Assembly (NCBI RefSeq): GCF_002151125.1
Contig: NZ_MDJZ01000016.1
Span: 124,001-188,000, forward strand
Direction: 5' to 3'
From: Clavibacter michiganensis
GTDB taxonomy: Bacteria; Actinomycetota; Actinomycetes; Actinomycetales; Microbacteriaceae
Length of the DNA: 64,000 bases
Shown: positions 47,023-56,851 of the stretch, piece after piece
Numbering within the stretch: the stretch's first letter is position 1
How the letters are laid out: each line of letters starts with the position of its first letter
The notes under the pieces: model-generated
Databases searched by the model: none
What the model saw: only the letters and a program-made list of their open reading frames with translations
Told to the model about the DNA's origin: nothing
Program-made: the position numbers and the translations under genes

Positions 47023-47043
47023 GGCCCGGGCTCCGCGCCCGGC

Positions 47044-48459
47044 TCAGGCCGCGCCGAGGCCCGTGACGCCCGCGGCGACCGCGGGCGTCACGATGCCGTC
47101 GGGCCAGCGGAGCCCCACCCCGGGCTCGGCGGTCAGCCGGCCGATCCCCGCGGTCGTCGCGTGCGGCGACGCCATGCGCGAGGCGCCCGGGGCGTCCGCG
47201 GTCAGCATCCCGAACCCGGGGAAGCAGGTGAGCCAGTCGCCCATCGCGACGTCGGCGGATCCGGGCACGGGCACGTCCGCGACGTCGACCACCGCGCCCG
47301 TCCCGCTCGCCTCCGCGAGCATGCCGGCGGTGCCGACGATCCCGGCCATGCTCACGTCCTTCGCGGCGGCCGGGCGGGCGCGCGCGACGGTCGCGGCGAG
47401 GTCGCGGAGCTCCGCGGGGGAGCGCTCCTCGGTCGAGTTCCACTGCGCTCCGCGGTGGCCGGACCGCCAGGATCCGGACACGTCGACCGTGAGGCTCAGG
47501 GCCTGGCCGGCGGAGCCACCGCCCCCGGGGACCGGCTCGGCGGTCCTGCCGAGGGCGGTGACGCTGAGGGCGGCGGGCACGCCGAGCTGCGTGTGCCCGC
47601 CGAGGACGGGGATGCCCCAGGCCGCGGCGGCGCGGCGGACGCCGGCCATCACGCGGCGGACGGACGCGGCGTCGCGCCCCGCCACGGAGTCGAGGAGGCC
47701 CACGGGGGTCGCGCCCATCGCGCTGAGGTCGTTGACGTTGACGAGCACGCCGCACCAGCCGGCCCACTCGGGATCCCGCTCCACCATGCAGGGGAGGATC
47801 GCGTCGCAGGCGGCGATCACGTCGGTGCCGGGCACGGGGGCGCCGTCGTCGCCCACCCAGCCGGGCCCGCCGAGGGCGCCGAGGGCGGCGGGATCGCCGG
47901 ACGCACCGGGCTCGAGCACAGCGGCGAGGTGCGCCTTGGTCGCGTCGACGAGCCGCTGGATCCGGCCGATGGGCCAGCGCATGGTCACGTGGTCGACGCC
48001 GCCGACGACCGCGGTGCCGGTGGGGATCCAGCCCAACCGCCGGAAGAGCACCGCGCTGCGCGCCTGCACGGTCGCGTCGAAGCGCAGCACGCCGGCCTGC
48101 TCCGCGTGCACCGCGGCGGCCCGCACGAGCGCCGAGCCGACGCCGCGGATCCCGCGTGCGCCGGGCGCCACGACCAGCCGCGACCCGGTCCACCAGCCGA
48201 TGTCCCGGACACCGACGGGCGCGAGCCGCACGCCGCCGACGACCTCGCCGGCGGCGCGCGCGACCAGCACGACCGTGCGCGGATCCTCGTCGAGCGCGTC
48301 GAGGTCGGTGCCCGCGAAGATCCCCTGCTCCTCGACGAACGCGTCGTGCCGCAGGCGCCGGTAGGCGTCGAGGTCGCGCCGGTCCGCCTCGGACACGAGG
48401 AACGCCGGCGCCGACCGGACGACCGGCGGGCCCATGAGGGCGGGGACGTCGAGGAGCAC
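47044..48459 (-). CDS. GNAT N-acetyltransferase fused to AIR-synthase-like domain (MSMEG_0567/Sll0786 + Sll0787 types)
   Basis: A 471-residue two-domain protein. Residues about 20-160 are a GNAT acetyltransferase (RRLRHDAFVEEQGIF, GSRLVVAPGARGIRGVGSALVRAAAVHA, LFRRLGW). Residues about 165-471 are AIR-synthase-like (LVNVNDLSAMGATPVGLLDSVAGRD, GIPVLGGHTQLGVPAALSVTALGR, AAAKDVSMAGIVGTAGMLAEASG). The two parts correspond to the nitrogen-starvation acetyltransferase and the AIR-synthase-like protein of the Nit1C cluster, encoded by separate genes in cyanobacteria. A GTG start lies 3 bases after the radical SAM stop. The product would acetylate and phosphorylate or cyclise an unknown intermediate. 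Confidence 0.88.
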   Translation of the reverse strand: MLLDVPALMGPPVVRSAPAFLVSEADRRDLDAYRRLRHDAFVEEQGIFAGTDLDALDEDPRTVVLVARAAGEVVGGVRLAPVGVRDIGWWTGSRLVVAPGARGIRGVGSALVRAAAVHAEQAGVLRFDATVQARSAVLFRRLGWIPTGTAVVGGVDHVTMRWPIGRIQRLVDATKAHLAAVLEPGASGDPAALGALGGPGWVGDDGAPVPGTDVIAACDAILPCMVERDPEWAGWCGVLVNVNDLSAMGATPVGLLDSVAGRDAASVRRVMAGVRRAAAAWGIPVLGGHTQLGVPAALSVTALGRTAEPVPGGGGSAGQALSLTVDVSGSWRSGHRGAQWNSTEERSPAELRDLAATVARARPAAAKDVSMAGIVGTAGMLAEASGTGAVVDVADVPVPGSADVAMGDWLTCFPGFGMLTADAPGASRMASPHATTAGIGRLTAEPGVGLRWPDGIVTPAVAAGVTGLGAA

Positions 48460-48462
48460 GGA

Positions 48463-49584
48463 TCAGCCCCCGGCGGTCTGCAGGGCGGAGCAGGCGCCGC
48501 AGGCCGCGCAGCCCGCCTTCTGGTCGGCGCCGCGCATCCCGGCGGCCTGGAGCGCGCGCGAGACGCGGAACGTCACGTCGCGGAGCACGGATCCCTCGGG
48601 CGCCGGCACGTGGTCGACGTCCGTCGCGAGCGTCCCGCGCAGCGGCCGGAACGGCACGATGAAGGGGTAGACGCCCATCTCGATGAGCTCCTGGGCGCCG
48701 GCGACCATCTCGTCCGGATCCTCGCCGAGCCCCACCAGCAGGTAGGTGGAGACCTGGTTGCGGCCGAAGACGCGCACCGCCTCCCGCCACGCGGCGCGGT
48801 ACTCGTCCATCGAGACGCGGGACTTGCCCGGCATCCAGCGGCGGCGCACGTCGTCGTCCATCGACTCCACGTGGATCCCGATGGACCGCGCGCCGGCCTC
48901 GTACAGGTCGGTGATGGTCGACAGCTGCGCGGGCGGCTCGCACTGCACCTGGATCATGAGGTCGGGGACGGCCTGCTTGATGGCCCGGACGCAGCGCGCG
49001 AGGTGGGTGGCCCCGCGGTCGCGCCCGTTGCTCGTGCCCGTGGTCATCACCATCTGCTCGACGCCGTCGAGCCGCCAGGCCGCCTCCGCGACCTCCGCGA
49101 GCATGGCCGGCGTCTTGACCGCGATGGTGCTGCCCGAGGCGAGGCTCTCCTCGATGGAGCAGAACCGGCAGCGCTCCGACTCGTCGTACCGCACGCACGT
49201 CTGCACCACCGTGGTGGCCAGCACCTTGGCGCCGTGCAGGCGCGCGATCTTCTCGTAGGAGACGCCGTCCGCGGTCTCGAGGTCGTAGAACCGGGGCCGG
49301 TCGACCGCGTCCACCTCGTAGCCCGTGTCCTCGCCGTCGAGCAGCAGCCTGCCGTCGTCGACGAGGTAGGGGCTGTCCGGGTCGGCCGGCACCGCGGACT
49401 GCAGCCCGCGGAACATCACGTGCCCGTCGTCGCTCGGCCCGGCGCCGCCCTCGCGGTGCACGGGCGCGGCGACGCGGATCCCGCGGATGGCGATGTCGAC
49501 GCGCGTGGTGAGCGCGGCGGCGTCCGCATCCGCGTCCGACTGCCGGGCGCGGCTCGGCGTCGTGGTCCCTCTCGTGATGGTCAT
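48463..49584 (-). CDS. MSMEG_0568-type radical SAM protein
   Basis: A 373-residue radical SAM enzyme of the Nit1C cluster. The iron-sulfur motif is Cys130-x8-Cys139-x2-Cys142 (TCVRYDESERCRFCSIE), not the usual CX3CX2C. A barrel with VMTTGTSNGRDRG, IQVQCEPP and GIHVESMDD follows. A second cluster site is suggested by Cys359, Cys362 and Cys365 near the C-terminus (AGCAACGACS). It should cleave S-adenosylmethionine to start radical chemistry on the cluster's unknown substrate. It sits between the MSMEG_0572-type gene and the GNAT fusion in one minus-strand operon. Confidence 0.92.
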   Translation of the reverse strand: MTITRGTTTPSRARQSDADADAAALTTRVDIAIRGIRVAAPVHREGGAGPSDDGHVMFRGLQSAVPADPDSPYLVDDGRLLLDGEDTGYEVDAVDRPRFYDLETADGVSYEKIARLHGAKVLATTVVQTCVRYDESERCRFCSIEESLASGSTIAVKTPAMLAEVAEAAWRLDGVEQMVMTTGTSNGRDRGATHLARCVRAIKQAVPDLMIQVQCEPPAQLSTITDLYEAGARSIGIHVESMDDDVRRRWMPGKSRVSMDEYRAAWREAVRVFGRNQVSTYLLVGLGEDPDEMVAGAQELIEMGVYPFIVPFRPLRGTLATDVDHVPAPEGSVLRDVTFRVSRALQAAGMRGADQKAGCAACGACSALQTAGG

Positions 49585-49595
49585 GGGCGCACCGG

Positions 49596-50126
49596 TCAGA
49601 CCATGTACGTGCTGTTGATGATGGCTCCCTTGCGGGCGTAGTGGATCACCGCGTCCTGCACGTCGAGCGGGTGGCACGGGATCACGCCCGCTATGAGGTC
49701 CTCCTCGCGCGCGCCATGCAGCGCCAGGCCGAAGCGGCAGCAGAAGACGGTGCCGCCCTCGCCGATGAACGTCTCGAGGGCGTTGTTGATGTTGTTCTCG
49801 CCGGGGAAGCCGTCGGCGCCCGTCGTGGGGAAGCCGCGGTTGGCGATGGCGTTCAGGGATCCGGGTCCGTAGAAGTACAGGACGCTCGTGAATCCCTTGC
49901 GCAGCGCGCGCGTGGCCTGCAGCACGGCGACGAAGCTCACCGACGACTCGTGCGCGATGCCGTGCACGAGCTGGAAGTAGTGGTCCTCCTTGGTGGCGGT
50001 GTAGTCGGGGAAGATCTTCGTCGACCCGTAGATGCTGCTGCCCTTCGGCAGCGAGGGGTGCGCGATCTCCTCGCGCGACCTCTCGATGTTGTCGAGGATC
50101 TGCTGGTCGATGTCGGCGTCGCTCAT
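49596..50126 (-). CDS. MSMEG_0572/Sll0783-family nitrogen-starvation response protein
   Basis: A 176-residue soluble protein of the DsrE-like Sll0783 family: SSIYGSTKIFPDYTATKEDHYFQLVHGIAHESSVSFVAVLQATRALRKGFTSVLYFYGPGSLNAIANRGFPT. In Synechocystis, Sll0783 is induced under nitrogen starvation and needed for polyhydroxybutyrate build-up. It is first in the minus-strand arm of the cluster, with AAGGAG before its ATG, and shares the 50127-50402 control region with the nitrilase. Confidence 0.93.
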   Translation of the reverse strand: MSDADIDQQILDNIERSREEIAHPSLPKGSSIYGSTKIFPDYTATKEDHYFQLVHGIAHESSVSFVAVLQATRALRKGFTSVLYFYGPGSLNAIANRGFPTTGADGFPGENNINNALETFIGEGGTVFCCRFGLALHGAREEDLIAGVIPCHPLDVQDAVIHYARKGAIINSTYMV

Positions 50127-50402
50127 GGTGCTCTCCTTGGCGGTCGGATGCGGCGGGTCGGGGTCTGGCTCGAGTCTTCGGTCGTGCTGTTGCGGGCGGA
50201 TTACGGCGACAATTCCATTTGCTACCCCATGTCGGCGGTCGGAGCCGGAAGGCCCGGTCGTGAGCGGATTCGGGTCCTGCGGATGGCGCGCGCGAAACGA
50301 GATCTTGTTCCGAGCGAAACCAAGCGGAAACACACCGTGGCCTTGACTGGGCCCCACGCGCAGGATCCTGCGCCGACCGGATCGACCCCCTCAGGAGGCA
50401 CG
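50127..50402. promoter_or_regulatory. divergent control region of the Nit1C-type cluster
   Basis: This is the longest gene-free stretch. A notably AT-richer patch lies at 50200-50226. Further on, GAAAC occurs at 50294-50298, 50316-50320 and 50327-50331, spaced 22 and 11 bases. An 11-base spacing of GAAAC-like half-sites is a property of GlnR nitrogen-control boxes, though the partner GTnAC half-sites are not clear. TCAGGAGG-type ribosome site precedes the nitrilase. Confidence 0.5.
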
Positions 50403-51305
50403 ATGTCGACGACCGTCGCCGCCGTCTCGGCGAACTTCACCCGGGACCTCGAGCAGAACTACGCGCTCATCGCGAGCCTGATCGCCGAGGCCCGGGAGAG
50501 CGGCGTCCAGCTCATCGCATTCCCGGAGGCCGCGATCGGCGGCTACCTCTCCTCGCTCGGCAACCACGGCGACACCCTCAAGACCACGAGCCGTTCGCTG
50601 CCGCCGGCGATCCGCCTCGATGGCCCCGAGATCCGGCGCGTGCAGGAGATCGCGGGCGACATGGTCGTGTGCATCGGCTTCTGCGAGCTCGACGACGACG
50701 GCGAGACGCGGTACAACGCGGCCGTCTGCCTCGACGGATCCCGGATCCACGGCTCGTACCGCAAGGTGCACCAGCCTCTCGGCGAGGCCATGTCGTACTC
50801 CGCGGGCGACGTCTACGCGGCGTTCGACACCCCGGTCGGCCGCGTGGGGATGCAGATCTGCTACGACAAGGCCTTCCCCGAGGCGGCCCGCTCGCTCGCG
50901 ATGGACGGCGCCGAGATCATCGTGAGCATGTCGGCCTGGCCGGTCGCGCGCACGGCGACGGCCGAGGACCTGCAGCAGGATCGGTGGACCTACCGGTTCA
51001 ACCTCTTCGACTCCGCGCGGGCGCTCGACAACCAGGTGTTCTGGGTCGCCTCGAACCAGGCCGGGTCGTTCGGGTCGCTGCGCTACGTCGGCAACGCCAA
51101 GGTCGTGGATCCCGGCGGCAACGTGCTCGCGACGACGCTGCTCGACGCGGGGCTGGCCATCGCCGAGATCGACGTCGAGGGCACGTTCCGGGCGATGCGC
51201 GGCGGCATGTTCCACCTGCGCGACCGCCGGCCCGACGCATACAGGACCGGCGAGGGCGTCCCCGCCGCCGGCCTCCCCGCCGAGGAGGCGCTGGCCCGTG
51301 CCTGA
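50403..51305 (+). CDS. nitrilase (Nit1C-type, Nit6803-like)
   Basis: A 300-residue carbon-nitrogen hydrolase with a complete active site: Glu42 in AFPEAAIGGY, Lys121 in SYRKVHQPLGE (with Glu128) and Cys153 in VGMQICYDKAFPEAARSL. It is shorter than plant and Rhodococcus nitrilases, as usual for the cluster-1 branch. It hydrolyses a nitrile to acid and ammonia, probably an intermediate of the cluster or, as reported for other Nit1C clusters, a product of cyanide assimilation. First gene of the plus-strand arm; its end overlaps the MSMEG_0570-type gene by 8 bases. Confidence 0.95.
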   Translation: MSTTVAAVSANFTRDLEQNYALIASLIAEARESGVQLIAFPEAAIGGYLSSLGNHGDTLKTTSRSLPPAIRLDGPEIRRVQEIAGDMVVCIGFCELDDDGETRYNAAVCLDGSRIHGSYRKVHQPLGEAMSYSAGDVYAAFDTPVGRVGMQICYDKAFPEAARSLAMDGAEIIVSMSAWPVARTATAEDLQQDRWTYRFNLFDSARALDNQVFWVASNQAGSFGSLRYVGNAKVVDPGGNVLATTLLDAGLAIAEIDVEGTFRAMRGGMFHLRDRRPDAYRTGEGVPAAGLPAEEALARA

Positions 51306-51627
51306 GATGACCTTCCGGGTGCGCTGGCCCGACGGATCCGAGGCCGACTGCTACTCGCCGAGCCTCGTGATGCACGACCACCTCGCCGCCGGATCCGAGT
51401 ACCCGCTCGACGACTTCGTGCGCCGGTCCACCGAGGCGCTGCGCGTCGCGAGCGAGCGGGTGCGGGCGCGGTACGGGTTCGCGTGCACGTCCGCGATGCA
51501 GCAGGAGGAGGAGATCCTCCGGGCGGCCGCGGGCTTCGACGGCGGGACCGTGGCGGTGCTGCGCATGGAGCCGCCGCTGCCGGACCCGGCGACGACGACC
51601 GCGACCGCGACGGGGGCCGGCGCGTGA
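51298..51627 (+). CDS. MSMEG_0570-family nitrogen-starvation response protein
   Basis: A 109-residue small protein conserved in Nit1C clusters: MPEMTFRVRWPDGSEADCYSPSLVMHDHL, YPLDDFVRRSTEALRVASERVRARYGFACTSAMQQEEEI. Function unknown; the conserved Cys18 and Cys63 are notable. The GTG at 51298 gives the family N-terminus; an ATG 9 bases later is possible. It overlaps genes on both sides. Confidence 0.92.
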   Translation: MPEMTFRVRWPDGSEADCYSPSLVMHDHLAAGSEYPLDDFVRRSTEALRVASERVRARYGFACTSAMQQEEEILRAAAGFDGGTVAVLRMEPPLPDPATTTATATGAGA

Positions 51628-52928
51628 CCCGCGCGACCCGCGTCGTCGACGGCGCGCGCGTGCCCGTCGCGGTGGTGGGCGGCGGCCAGGCCGGGCTCTC
51701 CATCAGCTGGCACCTCACGCGCCGCGGCGTCGAGCACGTGGTGCTCGAGCGCGACCGCGTCGGGCACGACTGGGCCGACCGGCGCTGGGACGCCTTCACG
51801 CTCGTCACGCCGAACTGGCAGTGCCGGCTCCCCGGGTACCCGTACGCGGGCGACGACCCCGACGGCTTCATGACGCGCGACGAGGTGCTCGCGTGGATCC
51901 GCGGCTACGCCGACTCCTTCGACGCGCCCGTGGTCGAGGGCGTGCTGGTCACCCGGCTGCGCGAGGCGGCCGCGGGCGGCTTCGAGGTCGTCACCGACCA
52001 GGGCACGATCGTCGCGGAGCAGGTCGTCATCGCGACGGGCGGCTACCACCGGCCCGTGCTCCCGGCGGCCGCCGCGCGGATCCCCTACGGCATCCGGCAG
52101 GTGCACTCCGCCGACTACCGCTCGCCCGAGGCGCTCCCCAAGGGGGCCGTGCTCGTGGTGGGATCCGGCCAGTCCGGCGCGCAGATCGCCGAGGACCTCC
52201 ACCTCGCGGGTCGCCAGGTGCACCTCGCCCTCGGATCCGCGCCCCGGTGCGCCCGCCGGTACCGCGGCCGCGACTGCATCGCCTGGCTCGAGGACATGGG
52301 CGTGTACGACATCCCCGTGACCGCGCACGTCGGCGGCCTCACCAAGCGCGAGTCGACCAACCACTACATGACCGGGCGTGGCGGCGGGCGGGACATCGAC
52401 CTGCGCGCCTTCGCCCGGGACGGCATGCGCCTGCACGGGCGGCTCGCCGGCGCGGACGGCACGCGGCTCGCCTTCACGCCCACCGTCGAGGCGTCGCTCG
52501 ACCATGCCGACTCGGTGATGGAGTCGATCAAGGACGACATCGACCGGCACATCGCGCGGGCCGGCATCGACGCGCCGACCGAGCCGCGGTACGTGCCCGT
52601 CTGGCGGCCGGAGCGCGAGGAGACCGGGCTCGACCTGGCCGAGGCCGGGATCACGAGCATCGTGTGGGCGGCCGGCTACCGGTCCGACTACTCGTGGGTG
52701 CAGGTGGGCGCGTTCGACGGATCCGGGCACCCGATGCACCAGCGCGGATCCAGCGCCGTCACCGGCCTGCACTTCCTCGGCCTGCCGTGGCTGCACACGT
52801 GGGGATCGGGGCGCTTCGCCGCGATCGCGCGCGACGCCGAGCACCTCGCGGACCGGATCGAGGAGCGCGTGGCCGAGCGGAGGCCGGAGCACGCCGGCGC
52901 CGGGGTGGGGGCGGCCTGGTCCGGCTAG
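51624..52928 (+). CDS. MSMEG_0569-family flavin-dependent oxidoreductase
   Basis: A 434-residue flavoprotein monooxygenase-like enzyme. FAD loop VAVVGGGQAGLSISWHL (residues about 15-31), NADPH loop VLVVGSGQSGAQIAEDL, and the closing strand GLHFLGLPWLHTWGSGRFAAI typical of the MSMEG_0569 family. It would oxidise, perhaps N-hydroxylate, the pathway intermediate. The GTG overlaps the previous stop (GTGA). The next gene starts 10 bases after its stop. Confidence 0.93.
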   Translation: MTRATRVVDGARVPVAVVGGGQAGLSISWHLTRRGVEHVVLERDRVGHDWADRRWDAFTLVTPNWQCRLPGYPYAGDDPDGFMTRDEVLAWIRGYADSFDAPVVEGVLVTRLREAAAGGFEVVTDQGTIVAEQVVIATGGYHRPVLPAAAARIPYGIRQVHSADYRSPEALPKGAVLVVGSGQSGAQIAEDLHLAGRQVHLALGSAPRCARRYRGRDCIAWLEDMGVYDIPVTAHVGGLTKRESTNHYMTGRGGGRDIDLRAFARDGMRLHGRLAGADGTRLAFTPTVEASLDHADSVMESIKDDIDRHIARAGIDAPTEPRYVPVWRPEREETGLDLAEAGITSIVWAAGYRSDYSWVQVGAFDGSGHPMHQRGSSAVTGLHFLGLPWLHTWGSGRFAAIARDAEHLADRIEERVAERRPEHAGAGVGAAWSG

Positions 52929-52937
52929 CCTGTCGCC

Positions 52938-53804
52938 ATGGCCGAGATCACGATGGGGGCGGTCGCGGCGCACTTCGGGCGCGACGTCGAGCGGACGCTC
53001 GCCAAGCTCCCCGGCATGATCGACCAGGCCCGCGAGCGCGGCGTCGACCTGCTGGTGCTCCCGGACGCGACCATCGGCGGCTACCTGCTCGACATGGAGC
53101 ACCCGGGGCCGGACGCGCTCCCGCCCGCCGTGGAGCTGGACGGCCCGGAGGTGCGGGCGGTGACCGAGATGGCCGGCGACATGACGGTGTGCTTCGGGGT
53201 CGCGGAGCGCGCGCTCGAGGGCGGCGAGGAGATCCGGTACAACAGCGCCGTCTGCGTGCAGGGCGGCCGGGTGCTCGGCACGCACCGCAAGGTGCACCTG
53301 CCGCTCGGCGAATCGGAGGCCTACCGGGCCGGATCCGCGTTCGCGGCGTTCGACACCCCCGTGGGACGCGTCGGCATGATGATCGACTTCGACAAGACCT
53401 TCCCGGAGTCGGCGCGCACGCTCGCGCTCGACGGCGCCGAGATCCTCGCCTGCCTGAGCGCGTGGCCGGCCAGCGTCACCGACCGCTCCGACCGGCTCCG
53501 CAACGACCGGCAGGCGCACCTGTTCGACCTCTACGACTGCTCGCGCGCGGCCGAGAACCAGCTCTACCTCGTGTCGTCGAACCAGACCGGGGTGCTCGGC
53601 GGCCTGCGGTTCCTGGGGCAGGCGAAGGTCGTGGATCCCGCCGGCGAGATCGTCGCGAAGACGTGGGCGAAGGGCGGCCTGGCCGTCACGACCGCGGACG
53701 CGTCGTCGGACATCGCCCGCGCCCGACGCACGATGCACCACCTGCGCGACCGGGTGCCGGCGGCCTACGCGCCGACGCCCGCACCCGCGCCCGCCGCCGG
53801 CTGA
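52938..53804 (+). CDS. nitrilase-fold protein with mutated catalytic triad (pseudo-nitrilase)
   Basis: A 288-residue close relative of the nitrilase at 50403, aligning along its whole length. The catalytic Glu is replaced by Asp43 (VLPDATIGGY) and the nucleophilic Cys by Asp150 (VGMMIDFDKTFPESARTL). Lys118 (HRKVHLPLGE) and Glu125 remain. The frame is intact and codon use is normal, so the gene is maintained but should not act as a nitrilase. It may bind the substrate or partner the active copy. TAGCCT (52926-52931) lies 6 bases before the ATG, giving it its own possible leaderless promoter inside the operon. Confidence 0.88.
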   Translation: MAEITMGAVAAHFGRDVERTLAKLPGMIDQARERGVDLLVLPDATIGGYLLDMEHPGPDALPPAVELDGPEVRAVTEMAGDMTVCFGVAERALEGGEEIRYNSAVCVQGGRVLGTHRKVHLPLGESEAYRAGSAFAAFDTPVGRVGMMIDFDKTFPESARTLALDGAEILACLSAWPASVTDRSDRLRNDRQAHLFDLYDCSRAAENQLYLVSSNQTGVLGGLRFLGQAKVVDPAGEIVAKTWAKGGLAVTTADASSDIARARRTMHHLRDRVPAAYAPTPAPAPAAG

Positions 53805-53853
53805 CCCGCCGATCCCCGACCCGCCGCCCGCCGACCCACCCGAGGAGCGCCCC

Positions 53854-55020
53854 GTGCGGATCGCCCTGCTGACCTACTCCACCAAGCCGCGCGGCGGGGT
53901 GGTGCACACGCTCGCCCTCGCGGAGGCGCTCGCCCGGCGCGGGCACGACGTCGTCGTGTGGACCCTGGGGCGCGGCGGCGACCGCGCGTTCTTCCGCGAG
54001 GTCGACCCGGCCGTGCGGATCCGCGTGGTGCCGTTCGCCGCGCGCGACGACGAGACGGTGGGCGAGCGCATCGTCCGCTCGATCGCGACCATGCGCGCGG
54101 CCTTCGCCGCCGCGCGCCAGGCCGAGGCCTACGACGTCGTGCACGCGCAGGACTGCATCTCGGCGAACGCGGCCGGGCCCTGCATCCGCACCATCCACCA
54201 CCTCGACGAGTTCACGACTCCGGAGCTCGTGCGCTGCCACGACGCCGCGGTGCGCGAGCCGATCGCGCGGCTGTGCGTGTCCGCCGCCGTCGCCGCGGAG
54301 GTCGAGGCCGGATGGGGGCTGGTGCCCACGGTGATCCCGAACGGCGTCGACGGCGCGCGCTTCCGGGCGGCGGCGGGGCCCGCGGGCGCCGAGGGCCGCG
54401 ACCGGATCCGCGCCGCGCTGCGCGAGCACGGCGTGGAGGGGGACTACGTGCTCGCGCTCGGCGGCATCGAGCCGCGGAAGGGCAGCGTCGACATGCTCGA
54501 GGCGTTCGCGCTGCTCCGTGCGTCGCGGCCCGGTCTCCGGCTCGTGTTCGGCGGCGGCGAGACCCTGTTCGACTACCGGGCGTACCGCGAGGCGTTCGAC
54601 GCGCGCGCGGCCGAGCTGGGGATCCGGCCGGTGATCCTCGGGGTCGTCGACGACCCCGACGTCCCGCCGCTCGTCGCCGCGGCGGGCGCGCTCGCGTTCC
54701 TCTCCACGAAGGAGGGCTTCGGCCTCGCCGCGATGGAGGCGCTCGCCGCGGGCGTGCCGGTGGTCGCCCGCGACCTGCCCGTGCTGCGCGAGGTGTTCGG
54801 GTCGTCCGTGCTGTTCGCGACGGGTCCGGCGGGCGCGGCCGACGCCCTCGCCGCGGCGCTCGACGGGCGCGCGCCCGACCCGGCGGGGGGCCGCGCGCTC
54901 GCCGCGTCCCACGACTGGGACGACGTCGCCCGCCGGCACGAGGCGTTCTACCGGGCGACGGGGACGGAGGGCGACGGTGGCGAGGCAGTCCATCTCGCGG
55001 ATCATCTCGGGTCTCGCTGA
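53854..55020 (+). CDS. MSMEG_0565-type family 4 glycosyltransferase
   Basis: A 388-residue GT-B enzyme. N-terminal LLTYSTKPRGGVVHTLALAEALARRGHDV, the middle VIPNGVDGARF, and the donor-site motif EGFGLAAMEALAAGVPVVARDLPVLREVFG with the EX7E pattern. It belongs to the glycosyltransferases linked to Nit1C clusters in mycobacteria. It suggests that the cluster product is glycosylated. The GTG has GAGGAG upstream. Its last 44 bases overlap the ligase gene. Confidence 0.92.
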   Translation: MRIALLTYSTKPRGGVVHTLALAEALARRGHDVVVWTLGRGGDRAFFREVDPAVRIRVVPFAARDDETVGERIVRSIATMRAAFAAARQAEAYDVVHAQDCISANAAGPCIRTIHHLDEFTTPELVRCHDAAVREPIARLCVSAAVAAEVEAGWGLVPTVIPNGVDGARFRAAAGPAGAEGRDRIRAALREHGVEGDYVLALGGIEPRKGSVDMLEAFALLRASRPGLRLVFGGGETLFDYRAYREAFDARAAELGIRPVILGVVDDPDVPPLVAAAGALAFLSTKEGFGLAAMEALAAGVPVVARDLPVLREVFGSSVLFATGPAGAADALAAALDGRAPDPAGGRALAASHDWDDVARRHEAFYRATGTEGDGGEAVHLADHLGSR

Positions 55021-56431
55021 CGCGGATCCCGACCGCGTCGTCGTGCGCGACGACGCCGGGACGCTCACCGCGCGCGAGCTCGACCGGGCGTCGAACCGGC
55101 TGGCGCGCGCGTACCTGGCGCTCGGCGTCGGGCAGGACGACCGGGTCGCGATCGCGCTGCCGAACACCCGCGAGATGGTCGTCGTCTGCGCGGCCGTCTG
55201 GAAGGCCGGCGCGACCCCGCAGCCGATGTCGACCGGGCTCTCCGCCGAGGAGCGCGCGCACGTCGAGGACCTCGCCCGGCCCGCGCTCGTGGTCGGCGCC
55301 GATTCCTCGCGGAAGGGCGTCCCGTCCGTGCCCGCCGGCTGGTCGCCGCCGGCGGGGCTCGACGACGGACCGCTGCCCGACGCCTGGGCGCGCAGCTGGA
55401 AGGCGCCGACCTCGTCGGGATCCACCGGCCGCCCGAAGGTCGTCGCGACCACGGCTCCCGCGCTGCTGGATCCGACGCTCCCCGTCGCGCCGTACCTCCC
55501 GCTCGACCAGGTGCAGCTGGTCACGGCGCCGCTCACCCACTCGGCCGCGTTCACCTACGCGTTCCGCGGCCTCATGACGGGCCACGCGCTCGTGCTCCTC
55601 CCGCGCTTCGACGAGCGGCGGGTGCTGGCTGCGATCGCCGAGCAGCGGATCACGTGGGCGCTGCTCGTGCCGACGATGCTGCATCGCCTGCTCCGCCTCT
55701 CCGCCGACGAGCGGCGCGCGGCCGACCTGTCGAGCCTCCGCACGGTGCTGCACCTGGGCGCGCCGTGCCCGTCCGGCGTGAAGCGCGCGTCCATGGACTG
55801 GATCGGGCCCGAGCGGCTCGTCGAGGTCTACGCGGGGAGCGAGTCGAACGGGATCCTCACGATCCGCGGCGACGAGTGGCTGCGGCACCCGGGCAGCGTC
55901 GGCCGGCCCGCGGCGGGCACGGCCGTCTCGATCCGCTCGGCCGAGGGACGGGAGCTGCCCGCGGGCGAGGTCGGCCGGATCTGGATGCGGCGCGACGGCG
56001 GGCCGGCCTATGCGTACGTCGGCGCCGGATCCGCCCGCACCCCCGACGGCTGGGACACGCTCGGCGACCTCGGGCGCGTGGACGACGACGGGTACGTGTT
56101 CGTGCTCGACCGCGCCGACGACGTGATCCTGCGCGGCGGCGTCAACGTGCACCCCGCCGAGGTCGAGCGCGTGCTCGAGCAGCACCCGGACGTGCGCGGC
56201 GCGGTCGCGTTCGGCGTGCCGGACGACGACCTCGGCCAGCGCGTCGAGGCCGTGGTCGACATCGCGGACGCGGAGGTCGACGCCGCCGAGCTGCTCGCCT
56301 GGGCCCGCGCCCGCCTGGATGCGGAGCGCCGCCCGGCCGCCGTGCGCCTCACCCGGACGCCCGTGCGGGACGACGCCGGCAAGACGCGGCGGCGGGCCTA
56401 CGCGCGGGCGGCGGTCGAGGGGCGCGACTGA
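54977..56431 (+). CDS. AMP-dependent acyl-CoA synthetase/ligase
   Basis: A 484-residue ANL-family enzyme. P-loop TSSGSTGRPK at residues 145-154, the AMP-site region VEVYAGSESNGILTIRG, the hinge DRADDVILRGGVNVHPAEVERVL, and the catalytic Lys in DDAGKTRRRA near the C-terminus. It activates a carboxylic acid as an adenylate, then probably a CoA thioester. The acid released by the nitrilase is one candidate substrate. The GTG start lies inside the glycosyltransferase gene in another frame. Confidence 0.93.
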   Translation: MARQSISRIISGLADADPDRVVVRDDAGTLTARELDRASNRLARAYLALGVGQDDRVAIALPNTREMVVVCAAVWKAGATPQPMSTGLSAEERAHVEDLARPALVVGADSSRKGVPSVPAGWSPPAGLDDGPLPDAWARSWKAPTSSGSTGRPKVVATTAPALLDPTLPVAPYLPLDQVQLVTAPLTHSAAFTYAFRGLMTGHALVLLPRFDERRVLAAIAEQRITWALLVPTMLHRLLRLSADERRAADLSSLRTVLHLGAPCPSGVKRASMDWIGPERLVEVYAGSESNGILTIRGDEWLRHPGSVGRPAAGTAVSIRSAEGRELPAGEVGRIWMRRDGGPAYAYVGAGSARTPDGWDTLGDLGRVDDDGYVFVLDRADDVILRGGVNVHPAEVERVLEQHPDVRGAVAFGVPDDDLGQRVEAVVDIADAEVDAAELLAWARARLDAERRPAAVRLTRTPVRDDAGKTRRRAYARAAVEGRD

Positions 56432-56440
56432 GATCCCGCG

Positions 56441-56851
56441 TCAGTCGAGCACAGCGGTCGCCTCCACCTCCACGAGCACGTCGGGCTCGAACAGGATCTC
56501 CACGCCGATGAGCGACGCGGGCGGCATCGGGCTCGGGAGCCCCAGCTCGTCCGCGACCGACTCGACGCCCGCGAGGAACGCGCCCATCCGATCGGGCGTC
56601 CAGCGCGTGACGTAGAAGGTGAGCCGCACGACGTCGCCGAATCCGGCGCCCGCGCTCGCGAGCCCGGCGTGCGCGTTGCGGAGGGCCTGCGCGACCTGGC
56701 CCGCGAGGTCGTCGGGCGATACGGCGGATCCGTCGGCCGTCCGCGCGATCTGTCCGGCGACGTGCACCTGGCGGCCGCCGGTCGCGACGGCGACGTGGTG
56801 ATACGGGACCGGCTGCATGAGGCCGGCGGGGGAGGAGAGGACGACGGGCAC
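56441..56851 (-). CDS. RidA-family protein without the deaminase Arg
   Basis: A 136-residue YjgF/YER057c/UK114-fold protein: GRQVHVAGQIARTADGSAV, AQALRNAHAGLASAGAGFGDVVRLTFYVT, and PPASLIGVEILFEPDVLVEVEATAVL. In RidA enamine/imine deaminases the position before the last strand holds an essential Arg (PxRxxV); here it reads PPASLIGV, so classical deaminase activity is doubtful. It is convergent with the ligase gene (9-base gap) and divergent from the HxlR gene. It may belong to either unit. Confidence 0.88.
   Translation of the reverse strand: MPVVLSSPAGLMQPVPYHHVAVATGGRQVHVAGQIARTADGSAVSPDDLAGQVAQALRNAHAGLASAGAGFGDVVRLTFYVTRWTPDRMGAFLAGVESVADELGLPSPMPPASLIGVEILFEPDVLVEVEATAVLD

Follow-up and report, generated by a model that had tools for sequence, protein, structure and literature searches.

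A gpr-type gene cluster with an intact and a nucleophile-less CN-hydrolase in Clavibacter

We describe a gene cluster at 47,044-56,431 of a 64,000-nucleotide stretch (the window) of Clavibacter michiganensis contig NZ_MDJZ01000016.1, in a source genome of 3.02 Mb in 18 contigs. By gene content the cluster is of the gpr type, resembling MSMEG_0565-0572 of Mycobacterium smegmatis with an added acyl ligase, and is a sister arrangement of the nitrilase cluster Nit1C without the nitrilase. Three aspects appear to be new here, as judged from comparison of sequences: the pairing of an intact carbon-nitrogen (CN) hydrolase, A, with a relative, B, that lacks the nucleophile; a GlnR-type box in the divergent promoter; and the exchange of the hydrolase and flavoenzyme positions among unrelated enzymes.

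Gene content and identity of the cluster

The minus arm holds three genes and the plus arm six, with a RidA gene beyond (S-adenosylmethionine is abbreviated SAM, and flavin-containing monooxygenase FMO):

47044..48459, minus strand: GNAT fused to a PurM/HypE/SelD/ThiL-like domain (MSMEG_0567 type); TIGR04045 84.7 bits (cut-off 68; residues 27-161), TIGR04050 452.4 bits (cut-off 312; residues 167-468)
48463..49584, minus strand: radical SAM protein, MSMEG_0568 family; TIGR04043 509.6 bits (cut-off 304), variant_rSAM NF045502 155.5 bits
49596..50126, minus strand: MSMEG_0572/Sll0783 family protein; TIGR04044 230.2 bits (cut-off 110); AlphaFold model with mean pLDDT (predicted local distance difference test) 88.5
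50316..50332, plus strand: GlnR-type box GAAACCAAGCGGAAACA in the divergent promoter, a GNNACN6GNAACA match
50403..51305, plus strand: CN-hydrolase A, amidase/carbamoylase-like; PF00795 155.7 bits; Glu42-Lys121-Glu128-Cys153 intact
51298..51627, plus strand: MSMEG_0570 family small protein; TIGR04042 126.9 bits (cut-off 80)
51624..52928, plus strand: MSMEG_0569 family flavin-dependent oxidoreductase (FMO-like); TIGR04046 645.3 bits (cut-off 498)
52938..53804, plus strand: CN-hydrolase B, nucleophile-less; PF00795 125.6 bits; Asp150 in place of the Cys and Asp43 in place of the base Glu, with Lys118 and Glu125 retained
53854..55020, plus strand: GT4-type glycosyltransferase, MSMEG_0565 family; TIGR04047 426.4 bits (cut-off 260)
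54977..56431, plus strand: AMP-dependent acyl ligase (acyl-CoA synthetase type), accessory; PF00501 202 bits
56441..56851, minus strand: RidA homologue, identified by Pfam, a flanking gene outside the module that is kept at the empty site in two cluster-free genomes (G309 and G312)

The best solved relative of the PurM-like domain is HypE (2z1e, E 4.4e-8), and the radical SAM protein carries the cluster motif C-X8-C-X2-C, read from its sequence. The MSMEG_0572/Sll0783 family is DsrE/YchN-like by literature annotation; a search for solved relatives gave none at a meaningful E-value. A family search of the module genes found no transporter gene.

Nit1C, as described by Podar et al., is a set of seven genes restricted to one group of subfamily-1 nitrilases, with a glycosyltransferase also seen in some clusters (PMC1199592). 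Its defining Nit6803-type nitrilase (TIGR04048, cut-off 502.6 bits) is missing both from the cluster, where A scored 47.2 and B 21.3 bits, and from the whole source genome, in which nothing passed the cut-off; this cluster is therefore not Nit1C proper. The cut-offs of the models for the other six Nit1C genes were all exceeded (TIGR04044, TIGR04043, TIGR04045, TIGR04050, TIGR04042 and TIGR04046), while the cyanobacterial AIR synthase (AIRS) model TIGR04049 stayed below its own cut-off (175 vs. 321 bits). Six of seven gene kinds are thus shared with the Nit1C of Podar 2005, the nit1C of Pseudomonas CECT5344 and the Synechocystis sll0783 region, namely ORF1/Sll0783, radical SAM, GNAT, AIRS, ORF6 and flavoprotein; the Clavibacter cluster differs in lacking the subfamily-1 nitrilase, in fusing GNAT to AIRS, and in carrying CN-hydrolases A and B instead.

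The gpr operon of M. smegmatis has eight genes (annotated in PMC6039565 and also in PMC4222082), and the Clavibacter cluster has the same eight families: the fused GNAT-PurM-like protein, radical SAM protein, flavoprotein, two CN-hydrolases, glycosyltransferase, and the MSMEG_0570 and MSMEG_0572 types. Seven NCBIfam models for six MSMEG genes scored over cut-off, and the two CN-hydrolases are present as in locus L039, where the gene order runs from MSMEG_0572 to MSMEG_0565 save for the MSMEG_0570-type gene, which was searched for at that locus and not found. Both systems also have a GlnR-type site. The differences are that Clavibacter has two divergent arms (gpr is a single operon), an added acyl ligase and a strain-variable module, and that MSMEG_0566, to which B corresponds by the gene order in L039, is printed as a putative aliphatic amidase (PMC6039565), whereas the B proteins in this comparison have no nucleophile.

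A preliminary description of this DNA had reported a divergent cluster with the recognised Nit1C set, in an actinobacterium. The host indeed belongs to such a genus, Clavibacter, and ten open genes, comprising two divergent arms plus RidA, are in place. Kinship to Nit1C holds through the six other gene kinds; the nitrilase counted in that set is absent, and the GNAT and AIR-synthase-like members, listed separately, are one fused gene. A second nitrilase-fold gene and a glycosyltransferase had been taken for additions, which they are not, because both belong to the known eight-gene gpr operon. The acyl-CoA ligase, likewise described as added, is the sole extra beyond the gpr set, and the RidA homologue placed at the edge of the cluster proved to lie outside it, on the evidence that follows.

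Judged by comparison of assemblies, the cluster is a 9.4-kb strain-variable module in Clavibacter: the radical-SAM gene was found in five of 18 genomes of the genus (own included), and the cluster is missing from the other 13. In two cluster-free genomes, G309 and G312, a short-chain dehydrogenase/reductase (SDR) gene adjoins RidA at the empty site; their alignments break off at window position 47028 (G309) or 47061 (G312) and resume at 56438. With G301, which carries the cluster, the alignment is confined to it (47037-56406), and the SDR gene is found about 400 kb away in that genome. These alignments set the module edges at about 47,028-47,061 and 56,406-56,438. Since the SDR gene and RidA adjoin where there is no cluster, RidA is a mere chromosomal neighbour, and we rejected it as a member; it was found in just two of the five cluster-bearing Clavibacter genomes.

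Relatives were collected by scanning the genome_contigs collection with a radical-SAM alignment, which gave 490, and the best 80 were kept; 64 of these loci are uncut by a contig end (thresholds set in this analysis). All eight core genes were found in 61 of the 64. The best 80 of 490, among which are Clavibacter lycopersici (L055) and C. michiganensis CASJ009 (L056), span many actinobacterial genera. A separate class sample of 394 genomes, with six candidates scored per genome, contained 50 with a match at E ≤1e-40, of which 33 (own included) have B, 16 have A only and one is a distant relative (G607).

The hydrolase pair and the exchangeable parts of the locus

The catalytic set of Glu, Lys and nucleophilic Cys is complete in A and incomplete in B. 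Among the best 80 of 490 relatives, A read Glu-Lys-Glu-Cys in 75 of 75 sequences, and B had Asp in the Cys column in 72 of 72, with Lys and the second Glu kept in all and the base Glu changed to Asp in 71 and to His in one. The class sample agreed: Asp replaced Cys in all 33 B genomes (base Asp in 25, Gly in seven, Gln in one), and all 16 A-only genomes read Glu-Lys-Glu-Cys, as does the single hydrolase of L041, a cluster from another class. As a control, genomes with no radical-SAM gene over the cut-off supplied 28 CN-hydrolase domains from outside the cluster; 26 were readable (25 Cys, one Ser and no Asp) and two were not. Compared with nitrilase-superfamily amidases (N-carbamoylputrescine amidase, PH0642, D-carbamoylase), the pair shares PF00795 and solved relatives, and A shares the Glu-Lys-Glu-Cys set; B differs in having Asp at the nucleophile and no base Glu, and both fall below every NCBIfam cut-off, the best fit of A being N-carbamoylputrescine amidase at 105 bits, far under the cut-off of 410. 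The selenoprotein idea printed for MSMEG_0571 found no support in the window, where the TGA stop of A and the GTG at which the MSMEG_0570-type gene starts overlap.

B is, by its pattern of substitution, under purifying selection. Between the window and five relatives dN/dS was 0-0.19 for B and 0.08-0.20 for A, mean conservation was slightly higher for B (0.74 vs. 0.70), and all 50 non-redundant B sequences shared the same Asp. A and B are each fixed for a different residue at eight positions, and 13 others are conserved in B alone; residues 183-205 hold six of these 21 (1.7 expected, P = 0.003, for a segment picked after inspection). B formed one clade in a tree of 99 sequences (Shimodaira-Hasegawa-like approximate likelihood ratio test, SH-aLRT, 99), a tree built by a quick method with long outgroup branches, so that its root and the place of the single-hydrolase clusters are unsure. 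The literature that we searched, at title or abstract level, yielded no description of B's active site.

A and B usually occur together. Four apparent exceptions (L062, L067, L071 and L074) dissolved when the absent partner was found elsewhere in the genome; those left are Brachybacterium L127/G517 and G344, with A and the flavoenzyme and without B, and 14 genomes in which A is accompanied by another flavoprotein but not by B. The metagenome-assembled genome (MAG) of L063 holds two clusters of this type, the second (L202) with A, B and flavoprotein, either by real duplication or by mixed binning. A further exception is genome G336, which has an orphan B (L166:7342-8205) with the Asp signature, no A, no flavoenzyme over cut-off, and no other cluster gene in the 15 kb covered.

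Around a core that appears largely constant, the hydrolases vary, and among relatives the hydrolase and flavoenzyme positions seem to be taken by unrelated enzymes. For the flavoenzyme, G331 and 14 A-only genomes have an unrelated flavin adenine dinucleotide (FAD) protein flanked by A and the glycosyltransferase (e.g. L173:8269-9822); these 15 loci lack the MSMEG_0569 flavoprotein, and the 15 genomes have none over the cut-off, though weaker relatives lie elsewhere in five of them. The switch amounts to one change on the radical-SAM tree, on which 12 of the loci were included and G331 was not. The MSMEG_0569 flavoenzyme exceeded its cut-off in 31 of 33 B genomes vs. two of 16 A-only genomes (Fisher P = 2e-8, uncorrected for kinship). 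A dependence of B on this flavoenzyme was not upheld, with just three independent pairs, and G331 pairs B with the other flavoprotein.

For the hydrolase, a PF04909 amidohydrolase (e.g. L167:3357-4190) was found in 49 of 168 loci tested, some of them short; it had no NCBIfam match at 1e-10, and a search for solved relatives returned none at a meaningful E-value. Of the seven distant clusters L047-L053, six (L047-L050, L052 and L053) have it adjoining the radical-SAM gene, and in five of those six the Sll0783-type gene flanks its other side. That place, between the radical-SAM and Sll0783-type genes, is the one the nitrilase occupies in Nit1C (PMC1199592). The amidohydrolase was absent from all 37 clusters with room and a window-like A (at least 70% identity) and from 20 of 52 with a less similar A, and a search of 37 whole genomes, mostly chosen for clusters without it, found none in 27, own included.

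At the downstream end, the acyl ligase lies beside the glycosyltransferase in 35 of the 64 uncut relatives (L094 was counted as lacking it, although one is listed there). The glycosyltransferase was sought and not found in L041 and L048. In C. michiganensis CASJ009 (L056/L046) the acyl ligase and the MSMEG_0570-type gene appear split over several frames and may be broken or misread.

The divergent promoter

In M. smegmatis the GlnR consensus is Gn2AC-n6-GnAACA (PMC3662644), and the gpr operon is bound by GlnR and strongly induced (PMC3662644, PMC4222082, PMC6039565). The window contains a single match, between the two arms; 0.43 were expected, and 34 of 100 shuffles contained at least one, so that the weight of the box lies in its position and conservation and not in its bare occurrence. 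A strict match was present in eight of eight divergent promoters and five of five Curtobacterium-type promoters (0.05 expected together). From one GlnR-type box between the arms we predict their joint control and co-expression; nitrogen starvation probably switches on the cluster.

Across the source genome a stricter form of the pattern had eight matches vs. one for the reversed pattern. Sites lie upstream of glnA and amtB (both over cut-off), upstream of a glutamine-type ABC ATPase and an amidase-like gene (both below cut-offs), and between two transporter-binding-protein genes; two more have no identified neighbour. At the site preceding the amidase-like gene (L212, C17:109102), the open reading frame across from it has no family match and presumably resembles an ANTAR domain.

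Proposed function and its alternatives

The explanation that we favour overall, with moderate confidence, is that this gpr-type cluster is induced by GlnR on nitrogen starvation and makes or modifies one small metabolite. Synthesis or modification is suggested by the combination of a HypE-like PurM domain, glycosyltransferase, GNAT and acyl ligase. A chemical scheme, each step of which we infer, would start with GlnR turning on both arms under nitrogen starvation. HypE and PurM activate amide-type oxygens with ATP, HypE thereby dehydrating a carboxamide, and the PurM-like domain would likewise spend ATP on activating an amide-type oxygen. The radical-SAM enzyme and flavoenzyme would contribute radical and redox chemistry, GNAT and the acyl ligase would attach an acyl group, and the glycosyltransferase a sugar. 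A would open one C-N bond in an amide, carbamoyl or amidine intermediate; B, no hydrolase of the usual kind, would bind either an intermediate of that class or A, and would serve as a partner subunit or perform chemistry that dispenses with a covalent thioester.

For B we offer a tentative reading, plausible if short of probable: a neofunctionalised nitrilase-fold protein in which one old event replaced Cys and the base Glu, whose Asp-Lys-Glu-Asp site (with Gly, Gln or His as base in some lineages) would perform a non-hydrolytic step, or which would assemble with A into an obligate hetero-oligomer, within a pathway induced by starvation where three unrelated folds (nitrilase, TIM-barrel amidohydrolase and CN-hydrolase A) fill the hydrolase position around a largely constant core. 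The conserved, nucleophile-less B offers a sharp entry point, with the 'putative aliphatic amidase' as partner subunit or new activity.

The best hint of a common purpose is the low-NADPH phenotype shared by a system with a nitrilase (Synechocystis, which presumably carries one of the Nit6803 type) and one without (gpr of M. smegmatis). The product probably acts on redox balance, because mutants of related clusters have low NADPH/NADP under nitrogen starvation: deletion of gpr is reported to lower the ratio (PMC6039565), and in the sll0783 mutant of Synechocystis it is low and fails to rise (PMC3901256). Nit1C and gpr have been studied separately, for growth on cyanide (Pseudomonas), for redox and storage polymer (Synechocystis) and for peroxide survival (M. 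smegmatis), and the gpr paper (PMC6039565) does not use the term Nit1C. Set side by side they show a single core around which hydrolases and flavoenzymes can be exchanged, and the similar NADPH phenotype with and without a nitrilase argues against nitrile breakdown as the common function.

Several points weigh against the favoured explanation. A pathway induced by nitrogen starvation may equally be catabolic. The strict GlnR box occurs in just one of 65 loci of other layouts (vs. 13 of 13 above), a count that omits L063 and L083, whose regions were cut wrongly, and for which, in loci with an upstream amidohydrolase gene, the region taken may differ from the operon promoter; in L056 the aligned box deviates at its last base, and the strict match is found at another place. 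The tie between B and the MSMEG_0569 flavoenzyme comes down to the three independent pairs, and five A-only genomes have relatives of that flavoenzyme below the cut-off (303-364 bits). The correspondence of B to MSMEG_0566 is drawn from gene order in L039. Finally, the radical-SAM tree implies about nine changes of the acyl ligase, which is thus not essential to the core chemistry.

The foremost alternative, rather unlikely in our view, is nitrogen scavenging, in which the cluster would degrade an external amide-, carbamoyl- or amidine-type compound, A freeing ammonia and the rest preparing the substrate. The intact catalytic set of A and the GlnR-type site common to the amidase-like and transporter genes fit this idea, as do the GlnR regulon of M. 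smegmatis, mostly concerned with nitrogen assimilation (PMC3662644), and the greater nitrogen requirement reported for biofilms of the gpr mutant (PMC6039565). Scavenging sits poorly, however, with a module that has no transporter gene, with a glycosyltransferase, GNAT and acyl ligase typical of synthesis, and with redox phenotypes observed in nitrogen-free medium (PMC6039565, PMC3901256).

Direct regeneration of NADPH, in which the flavoenzyme and DsrE-like protein would work as reductases and so increase NADPH/NADP, has been proposed for gpr, and it would account for the loss of both NADPH/NADP and peroxide survival on gpr deletion under nitrogen starvation (PMC6039565) and for the like failure of the sll0783 mutant to raise the ratio (PMC3901256). 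It leaves the radical SAM protein, glycosyltransferase and hydrolases unexplained, and an unrelated flavoprotein replaces the flavoenzyme in 15 loci. The flavoenzyme is moreover FMO-like, a class that normally consumes NADPH. We consider this explanation quite improbable.

Assimilation of nitriles or cyanide, as in nit1C of Pseudomonas CECT5344, had been suggested in the preliminary description, with cyanogenic plant hosts giving it a purpose. It can point to the core genes shared with Nit1C, and to the report that growth on cyanide requires NitC, the nit1C nitrilase (PMC11049912). The absence of the Nit1C nitrilase from cluster and genome removes its basis. A moreover reads CYDKAFPE around its Cys, which we take to be amidase-type and not nitrilase-type. 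With the cluster missing from 13 of 18 Clavibacter genomes and the best 80 of 490 relatives spread over many actinobacterial genera, the case for a link to plants is weak, and we regard the route as very improbable. The same description had doubted simple nitrile breakdown, a doubt that our results support, and had called the product of such clusters unsettled, with which we agree.

That B is a decaying gene without function, as the lost catalytic Cys and base Glu and the clusters without it (L127/G517, G344 and 14 further A-only genomes) might suggest, receives next to no credence from us, since its conserved Asp, low dN/dS, single clade, 13 positions of its own and occurrence with the seven other core genes in 61 of 64 uncut relatives point to a kept function rather than decay.

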